36,587 nucleotides of DNA, taken from the NCBI RefSeq assembly GCF_944387245.1, contig NZ_CALXEE010000014.1, positions 1 to 36,587 of the forward strand. The letters are read 5' to 3'. This DNA comes from an uncultured Intestinimonas sp. (GTDB lineage: Bacteria; Bacillota; Clostridia; Oscillospirales; Oscillospiraceae). The notes under the pieces were generated by a model. It did no database searches, had not been told where the DNA came from, and saw nothing but the letters and a program-made list of their open reading frames with translations. The translations under genes were made by a program, and so were the position numbers. Of the stretch, positions 264-22,047 are shown in pieces (position 1 is the first letter of the stretch; the number at the start of each line of letters is the position of its first letter).

Positions 264-872
264 ATGGGTACCAAGGGCCTATCAAAAGAGCTGATTGTGG
301 CGGAGGCCATTGCCTGTATCGAGAGTACCGGGCAACCAGGTGTGTCACTCCATGAACTGGCCAGAAGGCTGGGGGTGAAAACACCGTCCTTATATAACCA
401 CATTAAAAATACAAAAGAGTTGCAATATGAGGTCTTTCGGCACGCCATCGAAAAATTTGTAGTGAATCAAAAGGCGGCCACATTGGACAAACGAAAGGAT
501 GATGCGGTAAAGGCCTTTGCAGAGGCATACCACACTTTTGCGGTAGAAAATAAGGGATTGTATCGGCTTATCATGTCCATTCCGTCAGAGGATGACGACC
601 GAGCGAAGGAACTGGCAATTCCGCTCTTGGAAACTGTCGTTGAGATCTTGTCGGATTATGGGCTGTTAGAGGAGACCATCGCCCACTGGCAGCGTGTCTT
701 CCGTGCCATTTTACACGGGTTCATCTCCGAGGAGGAACTGGGGTATTTCTACTATTATCGATCTATCGATCTGCGGAAAAGCCGTGAGATTGCAGTGCAG
801 TGTTTCCTGGATGGATTGCATGCGGAGATCGAAAAGGATACAGAAATGAGATTGGGAGAGAGTGGACAATGA
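264..872 (+). CDS. TetR/AcrR family regulator (WHG-type C-terminal domain)
   Basis: A 202-residue one-component repressor. The N-terminal helix-turn-helix spans about residues 27-51 (LHELARRLGVKTPSLYNHI), typical of TetR DNA-binding domains. The C-terminal ligand domain contains an LHGF motif, as in the TetR_C WHG group. ATG 264 follows AAAGGAGGG (247-255) at normal distance. Its stop overlaps the start of the downstream MATE gene (ATGA, 869-872), so the two are co-transcribed and probably translationally coupled. Two palindromes in its own promoter suggest it represses the operon until an exported compound binds. The gene is more AT-rich than most neighbours, which may reflect acquisition. 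The ligand cannot be predicted. Confidence 0.9.
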   Translation: MGTKGLSKELIVAEAIACIESTGQPGVSLHELARRLGVKTPSLYNHIKNTKELQYEVFRHAIEKFVVNQKAATLDKRKDDAVKAFAEAYHTFAVENKGLYRLIMSIPSEDDDRAKELAIPLLETVVEILSDYGLLEETIAHWQRVFRAILHGFISEEELGYFYYYRSIDLRKSREIAVQCFLDGLHAEIEKDTEMRLGESGQ

Positions 873-2848
873 CAAAGAACAACGAACTGTTTACAACCAT
901 GCCGGTTGGGAAGGCCGTGGCCAAGCTTGCTGTTCCCACGGTCGTCAGTCAGATCATCGTCATCCTTTATAGTCTGGCAGACACCTTCTTTATCGGCCAG
1001 ATCGGTGATCCCAACCAGATCGCAGCCCTTTCCATCACGTTTCCCATCTATACGCTCCTGACTGCTGTGGCCAATCTCTTCGGCATCGGCGCCAACAGCA
1101 TCATCGCCAGAAGCATGGGTCAAAACGATGAGCTGACCGCAAAGAAGGCATCCTCATTCTCCTTCTGGGCGGGACTCGCCGTGACTTTGGTACTGTCTGT
1201 CCTGCTGGCAATCTTTATGCAGCCGGTTCTGCTGTTCTTCGGCGCAGATGAATTTACCCTGGGCTTTACCACGGACTATCTGTTCTGGGTCTTTGTCATT
1301 GGCGGGATCCCGACGGTAGCGGGGCTGGTTCTGGGGCATCTGGTCCGTGCGGTGGGAAAGACGAAGGAGGCCGGTATCGGTCTGACCATTGGCGGCGTCA
1401 TGAATATCATCCTTGACCCCATCTTTATTTTTGTCTTCCACATGGATGTGGCCGGTGCAGCTGTCGCCACCATGCTTTCCAACGCTATCTCTATGGTGTA
1501 TTTCTTCGTTGTGCTTGCAAAGATGAGAAAGTCGACCGTTCTTACCCTTTCGCCGAAATACTTCTTACTGGAGAAGAAGGTGGCCTGGGGGACGCTGTCG
1601 GTTGGATTCCCCGCCGCTATTTCGGTACTTCTGGTCTCTGTTTCCATCTCGCTTTTGAACGGCCTGCTGCTGAAGCATGAGAATGGCAACATTCTTTCCG
1701 CAGCCTACGGCGTGACGTCTAAGTGCGGAACCATCGCGCTTCACATCAGTATCGGCATCGCCCAGGGTGTTATGCCCCTGATTGGATACAGCTATGGCGC
1801 TAAGGACCACAAGCGGGTCCATGCGGTGTGTCGTCTCTCCTTCATCATCCTGTTCATTTTCTCCATTGTGTTCCTCGCCATTGTGCAGCTAATTCCGGAC
1901 ACCATCGTTCGGCTATTTATTGACCATGAGGAGACCATCGCCGTAGGCGGTGCGTTCATGCGCCGGTGGTCCTGGTGTGTGATCGGCATGAGCCTGTTCA
2001 ACATGTATAACTCTATCTTCCAGGCTGTGGGCAAGTGGAAGACATCGCTGCTGCTGGCGGTGCTGCGACTGGGGGTCATCTTCTCCGTTCTCTGCATCGT
2101 TCTCGACCATTTCTTCGGTGTCAGCGGCCTGATGTGGGTACAGGCGATCACCGATACACTGTCCTGCCTGATCGCTATGGGCCTGTACAGCCGCTTCAAG
2201 AAGTCCCTCATGAAGGAGCTCGCCGTGACGCCGGAAGTTGCTGCCGCGCCGGTTACCTCCAACCGGGTCATTACCATCAGCCGGGAGTTCGGCAGCGGCG
2301 GCAGGACCATCGGCAAGGAGGTTGCAGCCAAGCTTGGTATTCCTTGCTACGACAGCGAACTCATTGAGAAGATCGCCGCGGAGAGCGGACTTGCAAAAGA
2401 GTACATCGAAAAGCATGGCGAATACGCTGCGTCTGACAGCCTGTATGAGAACGCCGTAGCCGGCAGAGGGCGTGACGGTCAGTCTGACTCGGACAAGATG
2501 TGGCTGGCACAGGAAAAAGTAGTGACCGACCTGGCGGAGAAGGAGTCCTGTGTTATCGTAGGCCGTTGTGCCGACTATATCCTGCGGGATACCGCCGACT
2601 GCCTGACAGTCTTTATCCATGCGTCGGATGAGAAGCGTGCTGAGCGCATCGTATCGGTATACGGCCAGCGTGAGGAGTCGCCTGCCCAACGCCTGCATGA
2701 TAAGGACAAAAAGCGCAAAGCTTATTATGAACTCTATACCGGTACCTGCTGGGGACAGGCGGACAATTACGCTCTGTGTCTGGACAGCGGTAAGATCGGT
2801 ATCGACGGATGCGTCGAAATGATCGCACAGCTCTATCAGCACTCCTAA
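869..2848 (+). CDS. MATE family efflux transporter fused to a cytidylate-kinase-like domain
   Basis: A 659-residue two-domain protein. Residues 1 to about 450 form a complete MATE transporter (two six-helix halves; early motif PTVVSQIIVILYSLADTFFI), expected to export cationic or drug-like compounds using Na+ or H+. After a short Ala/Pro-rich linker, residues 465-659 match the cytidylate_kin2 group, beginning NRVITISREFGSGGRTIG. This glycine-rich loop resembles a P-loop but lacks the canonical GK[S/T], so kinase activity is uncertain. ATG 869 overlaps the tetR stop and has GGGAGAG upstream. In-frame starts further upstream lie inside tetR and are unlikely. The fusion is intact, without a frameshift. 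What the cytosolic domain does for transport is unknown. Confidence 0.88.
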   Translation: MTKNNELFTTMPVGKAVAKLAVPTVVSQIIVILYSLADTFFIGQIGDPNQIAALSITFPIYTLLTAVANLFGIGANSIIARSMGQNDELTAKKASSFSFWAGLAVTLVLSVLLAIFMQPVLLFFGADEFTLGFTTDYLFWVFVIGGIPTVAGLVLGHLVRAVGKTKEAGIGLTIGGVMNIILDPIFIFVFHMDVAGAAVATMLSNAISMVYFFVVLAKMRKSTVLTLSPKYFLLEKKVAWGTLSVGFPAAISVLLVSVSISLLNGLLLKHENGNILSAAYGVTSKCGTIALHISIGIAQGVMPLIGYSYGAKDHKRVHAVCRLSFIILFIFSIVFLAIVQLIPDTIVRLFIDHEETIAVGGAFMRRWSWCVIGMSLFNMYNSIFQAVGKWKTSLLLAVLRLGVIFSVLCIVLDHFFGVSGLMWVQAITDTLSCLIAMGLYSRFKKSLMKELAVTPEVAAAPVTSNRVITISREFGSGGRTIGKEVAAKLGIPCYDSELIEKIAAESGLAKEYIEKHGEYAASDSLYENAVAGRGRDGQSDSDKMWLAQEKVVTDLAEKESCVIVGRCADYILRDTADCLTVFIHASDEKRAERIVSVYGQREESPAQRLHDKDKKRKAYYELYTGTCWGQADNYALCLDSGKIGIDGCVEMIAQLYQHS

Positions 2849-3026: not shown

Positions 3027-5186
3027 ATGAACATGTGTGACCTGCTGTCAGGGCTAAACGATGCCCAGAGAGAGGCAGTCACCTCCACAGAAGGGGTAAT
3101 CCGGGTCATCGCCGGGGCTGGCTCCGGAAAGACCCGGGCGCTGTCCCACCGTTTTGCCTTTTTGGTGGAGGAGGTGGGTATCCTGCCAGGCAATATTCTC
3201 TGTGTCACCTTCACCAACAAGTCTGCCGCCGAGATGCGCCAGCGCATCCACGCTCTTACCGGAGATAACGACACCGGCTACATCAATACCTTCCACGGTT
3301 TCTGTGTCTCCGTCCTCCAGGAGGACAGCAGTGCCGTGGGCTATCCCAAGCGATTTCTGGTTCTGGACAACGCGGATATTGACGCTATGCTCCAAATCAT
3401 CTATGAGGAGCGGGGGCTCTCCCTGCGGGACATGACCTTCCAGAAGGCCAGAGACATGATCGAAATGCGTAAGCTTTTTAAAGAGCCTGACTATTACCAG
3501 GAGATGATTGCGCTCTCTCTGGAGGGCCTCCGGCAGAAGTACTCGGACGCGGTGCGGGCAGAGGACATAATTTTCTATGGATATCTCTATCAGGAGAAAA
3601 AATGCTTCGGCCTGGACTACAACGACCTTATCAAATTTACCCTGTACATCCTTGCACAGCGCCCGGATCTGAGGGAGAAGTGGCAGCAGCGGCTGGAATA
3701 CATCATGATCGACGAGTTCCAGGATATCGACCTGCTCCAGTACCAGCTGATGGAGGTCCTCTGCGGATACCATAAAAACCTCTTCGTAGTGGGGGACCCG
3801 GATCAGACCATCTACTCCTGGAGAGGCGCCGATATCCGTTACCTCCTGGAGTTGGACAAAGCTTTCCCCGGGACCCGGACCATTCTGATGATGGAGAATT
3901 ATCGCTCCACGCCGGAGATTCTGGCGGCGGCCAATTCCCTCATTGCCAAGAACCAGTACCGGCTTGAAAAAGACCTCATTCCCACCCTGCCCCCCGGCGA
4001 GCCCGTCCATTGTCACCTGGCAGACACCCAGGAAGGAGAGGCCAAGTGGATGGCGCAGCAGATGCTGGATCTTCACGAGCGGGGTGTTCAGTGGCGGGAG
4101 ATGGCTGTGCTCTATCGTGCGCACTATGTCTCACGTTCGGTGGAGGAGACCTTTCTTCATGCCCGGATTCCCTACATGATCTACAGCGGGGTGCCGTTTT
4201 ATGGGCGCATGGAGATCAAGGACGCTCTGGCCTACCTGCGCATACTGATCTACCGGGACGATCTCTCCTTTCTTCGGGTGGCCAATGTCCCCAAGCGAAA
4301 CCTGGGGAAACGCCGCATGGCCGCCCTCCGGGACTATGCCGCCCGGCACGACTGTTCCCTGTACCAGGCACTCCAGGACAATGTGGAGGAGGATATTTTC
4401 CGAAATACCAAGGGCCGGCAGTTTCTCTCCCTGGTGGAAAACCTTTCTGTTCAGGCGGAAGAACGGCCGGTTTCCGAAGTGCTCACTGCCGTGCTCCAGG
4501 AAAGTGGCTATGAGCGGATGCTCCGCACGGAGGGCAGCCAGGAGCGGTTGGACAATTTAGCTGAGCTCAAACAATCCATCTACGAGTACGAGACCACCTG
4601 TGGGGAGGAGGCCACACTGGAGCACTACCTGACCCACGTGGCGCTCCTGACTAACAGTGACACCGAAGAGCACAGGGATCGGGTCCGGCTGATGACGGTG
4701 CATGCCGCCAAAGGTCTGGAATTTCCATACGTATTCCTCTGCGGGATGAGCGAGGGTATTTTTCCCTCACGGAAGGTGCGTACCCTTCAGGCCATGGAGG
4801 AGGAGCGGCGGCTGGCCTTTGTTGCCCTGACCCGGGCCGAAAAAGGCCTTTTCCTCTCTGCCTCTGGTGGTCGAAACTTTGATGGAGCCCCACGGTACCC
4901 CTCTCGTTTCCTATTGGACATAGATACTGATTTGCTGGATCGTACCGGGGATTTCAGTGAGCGTCTCATTCAGGAGGCACGGGCTGCCATAGAGAGCAGT
5001 CAGCGCTATCTGCCTGAAAATGATGAGCAGACTACGTTGATGCCGGGACAACGGGTGAGGCACTCGGTCTTTGGTATGGGGACTGTGCTGGATGTGGATC
5101 TGGAAAAGTCAGCCCACGTGATCCAGTTTGACGATTTGCCTACTCCCAGGAGCATCTCCTTTAAAGCGAAGTTAGAACGGCTCTGA
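3027..5186 (+). CDS. pcrA: ATP-dependent DNA helicase, UvrD/PcrA type (superfamily 1)
   Basis: A 719-residue 3'-5' DNA helicase for repair and replication-fork processing. Motif I is GAGSGKT (30-36), motif II DEFQD (229-233), and motif III GDPDQTIYSWRGA starts at residue 256. The late motif VHAAKGLEFPYVF and VALTRAE are also present. The C-terminus carries the PcrA-like segment VRHSVFGMGTVLDVD, which in the family contacts RNA polymerase. Length is normal for PcrA. ATG 3027 follows GGGGAGGGGAGG (about 3015-3026) very closely; ATG 3033 in the same frame is the alternative start and has better spacing. UvrD and PcrA cannot be firmly separated by sequence alone; PcrA is the usual Firmicute orthologue. 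Confidence 0.93.
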   Translation: MNMCDLLSGLNDAQREAVTSTEGVIRVIAGAGSGKTRALSHRFAFLVEEVGILPGNILCVTFTNKSAAEMRQRIHALTGDNDTGYINTFHGFCVSVLQEDSSAVGYPKRFLVLDNADIDAMLQIIYEERGLSLRDMTFQKARDMIEMRKLFKEPDYYQEMIALSLEGLRQKYSDAVRAEDIIFYGYLYQEKKCFGLDYNDLIKFTLYILAQRPDLREKWQQRLEYIMIDEFQDIDLLQYQLMEVLCGYHKNLFVVGDPDQTIYSWRGADIRYLLELDKAFPGTRTILMMENYRSTPEILAAANSLIAKNQYRLEKDLIPTLPPGEPVHCHLADTQEGEAKWMAQQMLDLHERGVQWREMAVLYRAHYVSRSVEETFLHARIPYMIYSGVPFYGRMEIKDALAYLRILIYRDDLSFLRVANVPKRNLGKRRMAALRDYAARHDCSLYQALQDNVEEDIFRNTKGRQFLSLVENLSVQAEERPVSEVLTAVLQESGYERMLRTEGSQERLDNLAELKQSIYEYETTCGEEATLEHYLTHVALLTNSDTEEHRDRVRLMTVHAAKGLEFPYVFLCGMSEGIFPSRKVRTLQAMEEERRLAFVALTRAEKGLFLSASGGRNFDGAPRYPSRFLLDIDTDLLDRTGDFSERLIQEARAAIESSQRYLPENDEQTTLMPGQRVRHSVFGMGTVLDVDLEKSAHVIQFDDLPTPRSISFKAKLERL

Positions 5187-5215
5187 GACAAAAGAAAACT
5201 TTTCCGTTCGTCCTA

Positions 5216-5245
5216 TTGCAGAGTATGAGCTGGATATGGTACGAT
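5216..5245 (+). promoter_or_regulatory. Promoter for guaA
   Basis: TTGCAG (5216-5221) and TACGAT (5240-5245), 18-bp spacer. The implied leader is only about 25 nt, too short for a purine riboswitch. Confidence 0.5.
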
Positions 5246-5274
5246 AAACAAAATTGAACATGGGAGGTACTGCA

Positions 5275-6564
5275 ATGAAGCAGGACATGATCCTTGTACT
5301 GGACCTGGGCAGCGAGGAAAATCCCCGTCTGGCCAGAGAGATCCGTGCCCTTGGCGTTTACAGCGAGATCCATCCTCACGACATTACTCTGGAAGAGCTC
5401 AAGGCTCTCCCCAATGTGAAGGGCATTATTCTCAACGGCGGTCCTAACCGGGTGGTGGATGGCGTCGAGATCGACGTCTCCAAGGACATCTATAATTATG
5501 ATGTTCCCGTGCTCCTGGCTGACCACAAAGGGGACAAGCCCTGGCCCGCAGATCCCGCCGAGCGGAAGGAGGCTCTTTCCAACTTTGTCTTTGGACTGTG
5601 CGGTGCTCAGGCCAACTGGAACATGGACAACTTCATTGCTGACCAGGTGGAGCTCATCCGGGAGCAGGTGGGGGACAAAAAGGTCCTCCTGGCCCTCTCC
5701 GGCGGCGTGGACTCCTCCGTGGTGGCCGCCCTGCTCATCAAGGCCATCGGCAAGCAGCTCACCTGCGTCCATGTGAACCATGGCCTCCTGCGCAAGGGCG
5801 AGCCCGAGCAGGTGGTGGAGGTTTTCCGTCATCAGATGGATGCCAACCTGATCTACGTGGACGCCGTGGACCGTTTCCTGGATAAGCTGGCCGGGGTGGC
5901 CGACCCCGAGCAGAAACGAAAGATCATCGGTGCTGAGTTTATCCGCGTCTTCGAGGAGGAGGCCCGGAAGTTGGACGGCATCGAGTTCCTGGGTCAGGGC
6001 ACCATCTATCCCGACATCATCGAGTCCGGCACCAAGACGGTGAAGGCGGTCAAGTCCCACCACAATGTGGGCGGTCTCCCTGAGGATCTGGACTTCCAAC
6101 TGGTGGAGCCTCTGAAGATGCTTTTCAAGGACGAGGTCCGTGCCTGCGGCAAGGCCCTGGGTCTGCCCGACGGCATGGTTTACCGGCAGCCCTTCCCTGG
6201 TCCCGGCCTGGGCGTCCGCTGCCTGGGCGCCATCACCCGGGACCGTCTGGAAGCCGTCCGGGAATCCGATGCCATCCTGCGGGAGGAGTTCGCCAAAAAC
6301 GGCCTGGAGGGGAAGGTGTGGCAGTACTTCACCGTGGTCCCCGACTTCAAGTCTGTGGGTGTGAAGGACGGAAAGCGTACCTTTGACTGGCCGGTGATCC
6401 TCCGGGCGGTGAACACGGTGGACGCTATGACCGCAACCGTGGAAGACGTGCCCTTTGCGCTCCTCCAGAAGATCACGGCGCGCATCACTGCCGAAGTCAA
6501 AGGGGTCAATCGCGTCCTCTATGACCTGACGCCGAAGCCCTGCGGCACCATCGAATGGGAGTGA
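5275..6564 (+). CDS. guaA: GMP synthase with a truncated, catalytically empty glutaminase domain
   Basis: Makes GMP from XMP, ATP and a nitrogen donor. ATG 5275 is chosen because GGGAGG (5262-5267) sits just upstream. The 429-residue protein is about 85 residues shorter than ordinary GuaA (about 510-525). The ATP-pyrophosphatase domain is intact: P-loop SGGVDSS at 142-148, then GLLRKGE and IESGTKT. The dimerisation domain is also intact, from PFPGPGLG to the terminal TIEWE. The N-terminal class I glutaminase domain begins normally (MILVLDLGSEEN; GGPNRVVDG), but after DVPVL (76-80) the nucleophile motif GICYG is absent. A short unrelated stretch (81-102) joins directly to NFVFGLCG, so the Cys, His and Glu of the catalytic triad are all missing. 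The reading frame is open throughout. The enzyme is predicted to use free ammonia or a separate glutaminase partner. Confidence 0.92.
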   Translation: MKQDMILVLDLGSEENPRLAREIRALGVYSEIHPHDITLEELKALPNVKGIILNGGPNRVVDGVEIDVSKDIYNYDVPVLLADHKGDKPWPADPAERKEALSNFVFGLCGAQANWNMDNFIADQVELIREQVGDKKVLLALSGGVDSSVVAALLIKAIGKQLTCVHVNHGLLRKGEPEQVVEVFRHQMDANLIYVDAVDRFLDKLAGVADPEQKRKIIGAEFIRVFEEEARKLDGIEFLGQGTIYPDIIESGTKTVKAVKSHHNVGGLPEDLDFQLVEPLKMLFKDEVRACGKALGLPDGMVYRQPFPGPGLGVRCLGAITRDRLEAVRESDAILREEFAKNGLEGKVWQYFTVVPDFKSVGVKDGKRTFDWPVILRAVNTVDAMTATVEDVPFALLQKITARITAEVKGVNRVLYDLTPKPCGTIEWE

Positions 6565-6571
6565 GTTAATC

Positions 6572-6614
6572 AAAGCCGGCAAAGCATTACGTATAGTGCT
6601 TTGCGGGCTTTTGC
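6572..6614 (+). terminator. Terminator of guaA
   Basis: A 15-bp stem with one mismatch (6572-6586 with 6597-6611) followed by TTTTGCC. It lies 8 nt past the guaA stop. Confidence 0.75.
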
Positions 6615-11335: not shown

Positions 11336-12220
11336 ATGGATGAGATCAATGGCTATGAGGCCTATCTCAGGACAGAAAAAAAGGCCTCCGAAAACACTCT
11401 GAGCTCCTATCTGAGGGACGTGCGGCAGTTCGCGGAATACTGTGCCCAGGAGGGACTCACGCTCACCCACGTGAACCAGCCGGATGTGGAGGAGTATGTT
11501 CGCTACCTCACCAGCCGGGGAAAGTCCGTGTCCACCGTGACCAGGGCAGCGGCGTCGCTCAAGTCCTTCTATGGTTACCTGATCCGGGCAGGGGAGGCGG
11601 CCTCCAATCCGGCCCGGGGCGTGGCGCCGGCCAGGGTGGAGCGAAAGCTGCCTCAGATCCTGACCAGCAAAGAGGTGGAGCTCTTTCTGGAGCAGCCGGA
11701 GCGAAACGATCCCAAGGGCTGTCGTGACCATGCCATGCTGGAGCTTCTTTATGCCACCGGCATCCGGGTGAGCGAACTCATCGACCTCAATGTGGATGAT
11801 CTGAACCTGTCCGGTGGGTTTCTTCGCTGTGCCGGGAAGGGGAGAAGCAAGGAACGAATCATCCCTCTGTATGCCGCCGCCATCCGAGCGCTTTCCGAGT
11901 ATCTGAAAAACGTGCGCCCCCAGCTCCTGGAGTCCGCTGACGAGCCGGCCCTTTTTGTGAATATGACCGGAAAGCGCATGTCCCGGCAGGGCTTTTGGAA
12001 GATTATCAAGCATTACCAGGAGAAGGCCGGTATCCAGAAGGAGATCACCCCCCACACTCTGCGTCACTCTTTCGCCGCCCACCTGCTGGAAAATGGGGCA
12101 GACCTGCGCTCCATCCAGGAGATGTTGGGACATGCCGACATCTCTTCTACCCAGATTTATGCCCAACTAGTAAATCAAAAATTGAAGGACGTGTATATCA
12201 AGGCCCACCCCCGCGCATAA
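11336..12220 (+). CDS. xerD: Site-specific tyrosine recombinase XerD
   Basis: A 294-residue recombinase that resolves chromosome dimers at dif sites. The N-terminal SAM-like core-binding domain covers residues 1-85. The catalytic set is complete: Arg144 (TGIRVSEL), Lys168 (GKG), His240 and Arg243 (HTLRHSF), His266 (LGHADI) and nucleophile Tyr275 (TQIYAQ). Length and the spoIIM-xerD context indicate the chromosomal housekeeping enzyme rather than a phage integrase. ATG 11336 follows GAAGGTAGGAG. XerC/XerD distinction rests on context. No dif-like site was recognised in the window. Confidence 0.93.
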   Translation: MDEINGYEAYLRTEKKASENTLSSYLRDVRQFAEYCAQEGLTLTHVNQPDVEEYVRYLTSRGKSVSTVTRAAASLKSFYGYLIRAGEAASNPARGVAPARVERKLPQILTSKEVELFLEQPERNDPKGCRDHAMLELLYATGIRVSELIDLNVDDLNLSGGFLRCAGKGRSKERIIPLYAAAIRALSEYLKNVRPQLLESADEPALFVNMTGKRMSRQGFWKIIKHYQEKAGIQKEITPHTLRHSFAAHLLENGADLRSIQEMLGHADISSTQIYAQLVNQKLKDVYIKAHPRA

Positions 12221-21683: not shown

Positions 21684-21693
21684 ATATTGCAAG

Positions 21694-22047
21694 CAAGCCT
21701 GTAAGCCGGGTTCTGTCCTTTAAGACAGCCATCTATCTAGACGCGCCGTTGCCAGCGCGTTCCAGCCACCTCCACGGGACGGCCGGGCCAGCCATATGTC
21801 CCTCCACGGTGTTGCTCCGGATAGAGTTTACAGCGATGGGCAGTCTCCAGCCATCGGGTGAGCTCTTACCTCGCCTTTCCACCCTTACCTCGTCGGCGCA
21901 AGGCCCACAAGGCGGTATCTCTCTGTTGCACTTTTCCTAGGGTCGCCCCCGGCGGATGTTATCCGTTATCCTTGCCCTACGGAGCCCGGACTTTCCTCAT
22001 GGACGGCCTTTCGGCACTGCCCACGCGGCTGTCCAGCTTACTTGCAG
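21694..22047 (-). ncRNA. rnpB: RNase P RNA component, bacterial class A-like
   Basis: The catalytic RNA that trims the 5' leader of pre-tRNAs. On the - strand the 5' universal element AGGAAAGTCCGGGCTCC reads from about 21997 to 21981. The 3' element ACAGAACCCGGCTTACA reads 21716-21700. Internal conserved pieces GAAAAGTGCAACAGAGAG and GGTAAGAGCTCACC are present. The ends GCAAG and CTTGC pair as helix P1. Length of about 354 nt and the GGTAAGAGCNCACC element favour class A. The promoter predicts a 5' end near 22047. The 3' end is set from P1 pairing and could be off by a few bases. Confidence 0.95.

Follow-up and report, generated by a model that had tools for sequence, protein, structure and literature searches.

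Can an enzyme that has lost its means of taking nitrogen from glutamine still make guanosine monophosphate (GMP)? Textbook GuaA is a glutamine enzyme. The question is raised by a short guaA gene at 5275..6564 of the window, by which we mean the whole stretch of 36,587 nucleotides analysed here, from an uncultured Intestinimonas sp. (contig NZ_CALXEE010000014.1 of assembly GCF_944387245.1). Its product has lost the glutaminase catalytic triad and has intact synthetase motifs; proteins of its kind are under purifying selection, are widely spread, and occur as the sole GuaA beside inosine monophosphate (IMP) dehydrogenase. From sequence comparison, we consider it likely that the short GuaA is an active synthetase that converts xanthosine monophosphate (XMP) to GMP with free ammonia instead of glutamine: the simplest way to read a protein that keeps the synthetase motifs but has no glutaminase is that it uses ammonia. 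That such a GMP synthase may complement or replace the glutamine-dependent enzyme is the best explanation of the data. The gene is laid out as follows.

5262..5267, plus strand: probable ribosome-binding site GGGAGG, read from the sequence, 7 bases 5' of the ATG
5275..6564, plus strand: short guaA (the S form defined below), ATG at 5275, open frame, 429 residues
5275..5514, plus strand: N-terminal half of a class I glutaminase domain (residues 1-80), without the nucleophile and the His/Glu
5515..5565, plus strand: linker (residues 81-97) standing where the catalytic half would be; S relatives differ in its length and sequence
5566..6561, plus strand: complete N-type ATP-pyrophosphatase and XMP-binding/dimerisation domains (residues 98-429; TIGR00884)
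5698..5718, plus strand: P-loop SGGVDSS (residues 142-148), invariant across the 36-sequence alignment A1
5770..5778, plus strand: His166-Val167-Asn168 on the adenine-binding strand, in place of the Phe/Tyr-x-Asp of full-length GuaA
6049..6066, plus strand: lid-loop motif VKSHHN (usually IK[T/S]HHN, as given in a section of PMC9312489)
6283..6558, plus strand: GMP_synt_C dimerisation domain (residues 337-428; PF00958)

Residues 6-80 match positions 1-74 of the 188 positions of TIGR00888, the GuaA glutaminase model, at 54.4 bits (cut-off 172.15). By contrast, the matches to TIGR00884 (457.7 bits, cut-off 338.75) and PF00958 (128.1 bits, cut-off 27) cover both domains completely, and a motif search of the protein found neither G-[IV]-C-Y-G nor H-x-E-V. 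These results bear out the first-pass annotation of this DNA, which had described an open frame with complete synthetase and dimerisation domains and a lost glutaminase triad. It had also let DVPVL run straight into NFVFGLCG with some 105 residues missing. The deletion is real, but its size and its clean edge do not hold: in an alignment to GuaA 7sbc (A. baumannii), residue 80 corresponds to 93 and residue 94 to 192, so that 13 residues stand where 7sbc has 98, the net loss is about 85 residues, and a short variable linker fills the join. In an AlphaFold2 model, the ten-residue blocks of the half-glutaminase (residues 1-80) score 85-95 in the predicted local distance difference test (pLDDT).

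The same architecture recurs in other organisms. Our relatives comprise the best 80 of at least 589 stretches in GTDB contigs and the loci found in 99 genomes, of which the window's is one. We call full-length proteins F, those with a half-glutaminase as in the window S, and headless ones H; X are half-glutaminase proteins split from S at 60% identity, and Y are headless proteins outside H. Among the relatives kept, the S form is represented by 74 rows (66-100% identity, including at least two identical ones) and the H form by 43 rows after exclusion of two that end at contig ends. These two (L109_H and L111_H) are S-like genes cut by the contig ends, left out of the count at residues 166 and 168 given below and kept in the wide tree; L054_Y, also cut by a contig end, was relabelled F. 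The nucleophile elbow and H-x-E-[V/S] are present in 36/36 full-length rows and in 0/127 other rows, five of the latter being cut or fragmentary (L034, L054, L109, L111 and L127). S records carry the labels Bacillota, Bacteroidota, Kiritimatiellota and Lentisphaerota, those of the last two being metagenome-assembled genomes (MAGs). By record title, isolates with S include Bacteroides oleiciplenus, Parabacteroides goldsteinii, Faecalicatena contorta, Anaerotruncus massiliensis and Caryophanon tenue. A sequencing or assembly artefact is ruled out by the recurrence of one architecture in 74 rows with isolates among them. In most H proteins (L029-L039, L095-L119), an N-terminal tail near RPExMxRI(T/N)T replaces the half-glutaminase. 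The X proteins L121 (G020) and L122 (G038) have a half-glutaminase, are 46-50% identical to the window protein and come from genomes without full-length GuaA; X is probably a second, separately derived half-glutaminase GuaA.

Upon inspection of the synthetase portion, we found the catalytic motifs invariant in the 36 sequences of A1. The adenyl-XMP motifs are present (DxxES, IK(T/S)HHN, KD(D/E)V(K/R) and the C-terminal Lys and Glu), with the lid-loop Ile replaced by Val in 67/74 S rows. Could the enzyme nonetheless aminate a different nucleotide, or use a different cosubstrate? This rival draws on the adenine-binding strand, which we take to be E. coli Leu255-Asp261 by offset from the P-loop. 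All 117 S and H rows carry His166 and Asn168, while the 37 F rows have Phe (33) or Tyr (4) at site 166 and Asp (36) or Asn (1) at site 168. The second proline of the KPP motif is likewise changed in the S and H rows displayed. A strand that holds the adenine in GMP synthetase is described in part of PMC10526850. Conversely, the reported XMP-contact residues Lys421 and Glu427 are kept, as is Arg215 by alignment offset, and the short form occurs in the context of guaB and a purine riboswitch (see below). We regard a changed substrate as quite unlikely.

Selection bears on a further rival, that the short form is a decaying or regulatory pseudoenzyme. We compared 12 close sequences in 58-66 pairs after removing pairs with a synonymous rate (dS) above 3. 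For residues 1-82, the ratio of nonsynonymous to synonymous rates (dN/dS) has a median of 0.098; the linker (residues 83-97) stands at 0.29 and the core at 0.075, with dS about 1. Because the ratio is low in the half-glutaminase too, the remnant itself is maintained. A long antisense open reading frame (ORF; 5161-6582, minus strand) overlaps the gene; the purifying selection was found on the plus frame. Two rows speak for decay: the frame of the S row L091 is shortened, and L120, from a genome of the window's genus (G003) that also has a full-length guaA, is a remnant matching only residues 1-112 of S. Set against these cases, the low ratios, the invariant motifs and the fact that 6 good-quality genomes have S, and 8 have H, as their sole GuaA leave a pseudoenzyme exceedingly improbable. 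The proposal that this is a stable form and not decay thus held up, by recurrence in isolates among others and by purifying selection; its companion, that the form is lineage-specific, did not, as the form occurs under several phylum labels.

The history of the family was traced in a careful tree of the synthetase core, built from 37 F and 2 X sequences with samples of the S (12 of 74), H (8 of 45) and Y (3 of 4) rows; L126_Y was excluded for its long branch. S and H together form one clade (support 100/100, branch length 0.69), within which H is a single clade nested in S (support 100/99). This nesting points to a stepwise path from full to half to no glutaminase. In a wider quick tree, the two contig-cut 'H' rows group among S. 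The X proteins (G020, G038) and the headless Y proteins of G018, G045 and G088 fall among F; the headless protein of G065 is too divergent to be placed. The topology test rejects a single clade for all short forms (p-AU 0.0004) and, less firmly, one of S, H and X (p-AU 0.029); long branches leave the number of glutaminase losses uncertain. In both trees, Bacteroidota S sequences sit among those of Bacillota, which suggests transfer of S between phyla.

Does the short form carry GMP synthesis by itself? Among the 99 genomes, 66 are of good quality (completeness of 90% or more, contamination of 5% or less): 32 have F only, 5 F and S, 9 F and H, 6 S only, 8 H only, 1 X only and 3 Y only, and 2 have no GuaA. 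These last two (G007, G047) contain IMP dehydrogenase. A short form without F is thus found in 18/66 good-quality genomes (G012, G014, G015, G018, G020, G023, G062, G065, G070, G075, G076, G079, G080, G081, G088, G093, G096 and G097). IMP dehydrogenase is present in 17 of these 18, over the model cut-off in 8 and divergent in 9 (332-359 bits). Across the relatives, IMP dehydrogenase matches lie at about 520-665 bits or, in divergent, near-full-length proteins below the cut-off, at about 330-365 bits; the window's genome has one at 659 bits.

Such genomes might instead pair the short form with a separate glutaminase subunit, as in the archaeal two-subunit GMP synthetase. The length of H resembles that of archaeal GuaAb, and the archaeal subunits associate only transiently, according to part of PMC10526850. 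Several sole-form genomes have class I glutaminase frames of about 195-270 residues, and in G012 and G093 such frames reach about 100 bits with TIGR00888, under its cut-off. Yet a match over that cut-off is found in 0/18 sole-form genomes, the same search being positive in 14/14 controls (4 of them archaea), and G079 has no TIGR00888 match at an E value of 0.001. Each sole-form genome has just 1-4 class I glutaminase matches, even with the S half-domains counted. We give a separate subunit little credence. The first-pass annotation had offered free ammonia or a borrowed glutaminase; the former is the best reading, while for the latter no GuaAa-type glutaminase over cut-off appears in the 18 genomes.

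The short form could also work only as a heteromer with full-length GuaA, through a mixed dimer of the C-terminal domains, receiving its partner's ammonia or tuning its partner. Its dimerisation domain is intact, both genes occur in 16/99 genomes, and F shares a locus with S or H in 13 loci. On the other side, 29/99 genomes have a short form without full-length GuaA (the 18 good-quality genomes among them), no F was seen in the remaining S or H loci, whose flanks span 0-3 kb, and the window's own genome has the two genes on different contigs. Its full-length guaA (G000:C76) has GICYG and HPEV intact, is cut at the C-terminus by a contig end and is the only protein of the genome to exceed the TIGR00888 cut-off. 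The first-pass annotation had named a full-length guaA elsewhere in the genome as contrary to its proposal, and one exists in this organism; in others the short form stands alone. Short forms and F avoid each other: F is present in 16/45 genomes with a short form and in 45/54 without (p=1.3e-6, Fisher's test, kinship ignored). In a sample of 41 genomes from the family of the L070 genome, three have a short form (S in 2, headless in 1) and no F, whereas F is present in 35 of the remaining 38. An obligate heteromer is unlikely.

We therefore return to ammonia use by an independent short GuaA. ATP and XMP would react in the intact ATP-pyrophosphatase site of a dimer, giving adenyl-XMP, which free ammonia of the cell would attack to yield GMP. 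In line with this, isolated synthetase domains of the P. falciparum and E. coli GMP synthetases are reported to convert XMP to GMP with external ammonia. The half-glutaminase may serve to keep helix 1 docked against the synthetase; its role would be structural or regulatory and not that of a nitrogen donor. In organisms with two enzymes, such as this one, S or H would serve when ammonia is plentiful and the glutamine-dependent F when nitrogen is scarce; elsewhere the short form would be the only GMP synthase. Ammonia use predicts a Michaelis constant (Km) for ammonium below those of known enzymes.

Several points weigh against this proposal. According to part of PMC10526850, all GMP synthetases studied prefer glutamine and their Km for ammonium is far higher, up to 174 mM; cellular levels of free ammonia are generally regarded as low, as stated in a section of PMC3376133. 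The changes F166H and D168N, fixed in S and H on the adenine-binding strand, could mean altered chemistry. One sole-form genome (G080) is without IMP dehydrogenase, and the divergent enzymes of nine others fall below cut-off. F is over cut-off in 18/21 genomes reached via S or H loci (G114, among the three without it, has a pair of neighbouring partial frames that match the glutaminase of F), and the short-form genomes that also have F include the window's, so that two enzymes could act together. Finally, ammonia use does not explain the absence of cytidine triphosphate (CTP) synthase from all 18 good-quality sole-form genomes, none of which matched the full model (TIGR00337) or the synthetase domain (PF06418). 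Among good-quality genomes with F, 41/46 have CTP synthase and 5/46 lack it (p=9e-12, Fisher's test, kinship ignored). It is present in G112, G134 and G153, genomes of a Bacteroidales family with a short form only, and in G114, and absent from G109, a Bacteroidales MAG that has S but no F. One possible cause of the gap is that a shared gene cluster was lost.

Glutamine shortage as a driver is not supported, as matches to the glutamine synthetase family occur in 66/66 good-quality relatives, in some of them only weaker matches in frames of about 700 residues.

The wider account would be that gut anaerobes of several phyla repeatedly stripped the glutaminase and make GMP from ammonia, that the isozyme spread across phyla and displaced the glutamine enzyme in some lineages, and that the half-domain was kept for docking or regulation. 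We find this joint account evenly poised.

Gene neighbourhoods add to this picture. Of 128 ORFs listed beside S, 106 were scanned against Pfam (the 22 left out are mostly short and include one full-length guaA, in L022), and the commonest matches among the scanned proteins are full-length GuaA (6) and IMP dehydrogenase (5). In L070, L073, L075, L078 and L089, guaB lies directly upstream of S on the same strand, and S adjoins guaB in some Bacteroidales; a guaB motif is also found upstream in L069 and next to the headless gene in L123. Caryophanon has a purine riboswitch ahead of S, and F downstream; no further purine riboswitch was found in the 16 sources scanned. F lies near various of AmtB-PII fusion, GSIII, GltB-type GATase_2, CarA, AsnB, GlmS and PyrG genes in G021, G046, G053, G063, G074 and G087, and carAB stands beside F in the window's own genome and in G008; loci of this kind include L188, L189, L191, L192, L197 and L199. 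The regions compared span 9-20 kb and were picked in part for pyrG or glnA near F. By coordinates, pyrG lies within 20 kb of F in 11/56 genomes having both. The same query genes in 109 S or H loci gave GlmS 1, AsnB 1, CarB 2, PyrG 1 and GSIII 1, and no AmtB-PII, CarA or GltB within the 0-3 kb flanks. Because these flanks are so short, the contrast in nitrogen genes between F and S or H is suggestive only. In the query frames for AmtB_PII, AsnB, GSIII and GS406, the gene is preceded by some residues from the sequence upstream; in places GS406 also overlaps the opposite strand of PyrG, and its matches were not used. As a separate observation, G008 has a 179-residue frame like the GuaA C-terminus (L127, G008:C1:1384597-1385118) about 14 kb from its full-length guaA, which sits on an unusually long branch.

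A phage context of the short guaA was set aside: most of the ten window ORFs scanned are common genes of bacterial chromosomes (UvrD helicase, GNAT, tgt, ruvA, ruvB and others). No riboswitch was found in the window at the gathering threshold. Other features of the window are these.

800-2848, plus strand: 682-residue protein in which a MATE transporter domain is fused to a cytidylate-kinase-like domain
11336-12217, plus strand: tyrosine recombinase of the phage-integrase family, 4.8 kb from the short guaA, among chromosomal genes
21686-22044, minus strand: bacterial RNase P class A RNA

Neither the fold nor the chemistry is new; the novelty lies in the architecture and in its replacement of the glutamine enzyme. 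A glutaminase-free GuaA family would alter models of how nitrogen flows into nucleotides in ammonia-rich guts, and the half-domain form offers a naturally occurring experiment on the role of glutaminase helix 1 in the synthetase. Table 1 of a 2012 survey of about 800 genomes (PMC3376133) gives GMP synthetase as 100% fused, with 0 glutaminase-free enzymes in 730 genomes, and we found no description of a glutaminase-less GMP synthase in the open-licence PMC literature, of whose long result lists we covered a part. In NCBIfam the label 'glutamine-hydrolyzing GMP synthase' is given, above cut-off, to the window protein and to three relatives (two S, one H), so annotation has probably hidden the short family.

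Compared with this glutamine-hydrolysing GuaA (EC 6.3.5.2; NF000848, or TIGR00888 with TIGR00884), S has the same synthetase and dimerisation domains in the same order and keeps the first half of the glutaminase fold in the same place, but it lacks the catalytic half, differs at residues 166 and 168, and belongs to a separate long-branch clade. NadE type N, single-domain and ammonia-dependent, is a related N-type ATP-pyrophosphatase without a glutaminase, and its family shows a similar split into short and long enzymes (part of PMC3376133); its substrate is different, and short NadE was there inferred to be ancestral, whereas short GuaA looks derived. The archaeal GuaAb/GuaAa system likewise has a synthetase without a fused active glutaminase, and the window protein is 52-54% identical to the M. 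jannaschii and Pyrococcus synthetase subunits in a structure alignment. In contrast to that system, sole-form genomes have no GuaAa gene over cut-off, and S, unlike GuaAb, still has half a glutaminase, a sign that it arose by loss from a fused ancestor; H would qualify as glutaminase-free. AsnA and AsnB, ammonia- and glutamine-using enzymes for one reaction, offer an analogy only: those two are unrelated proteins, whereas short and full-length GuaA are paralogues.
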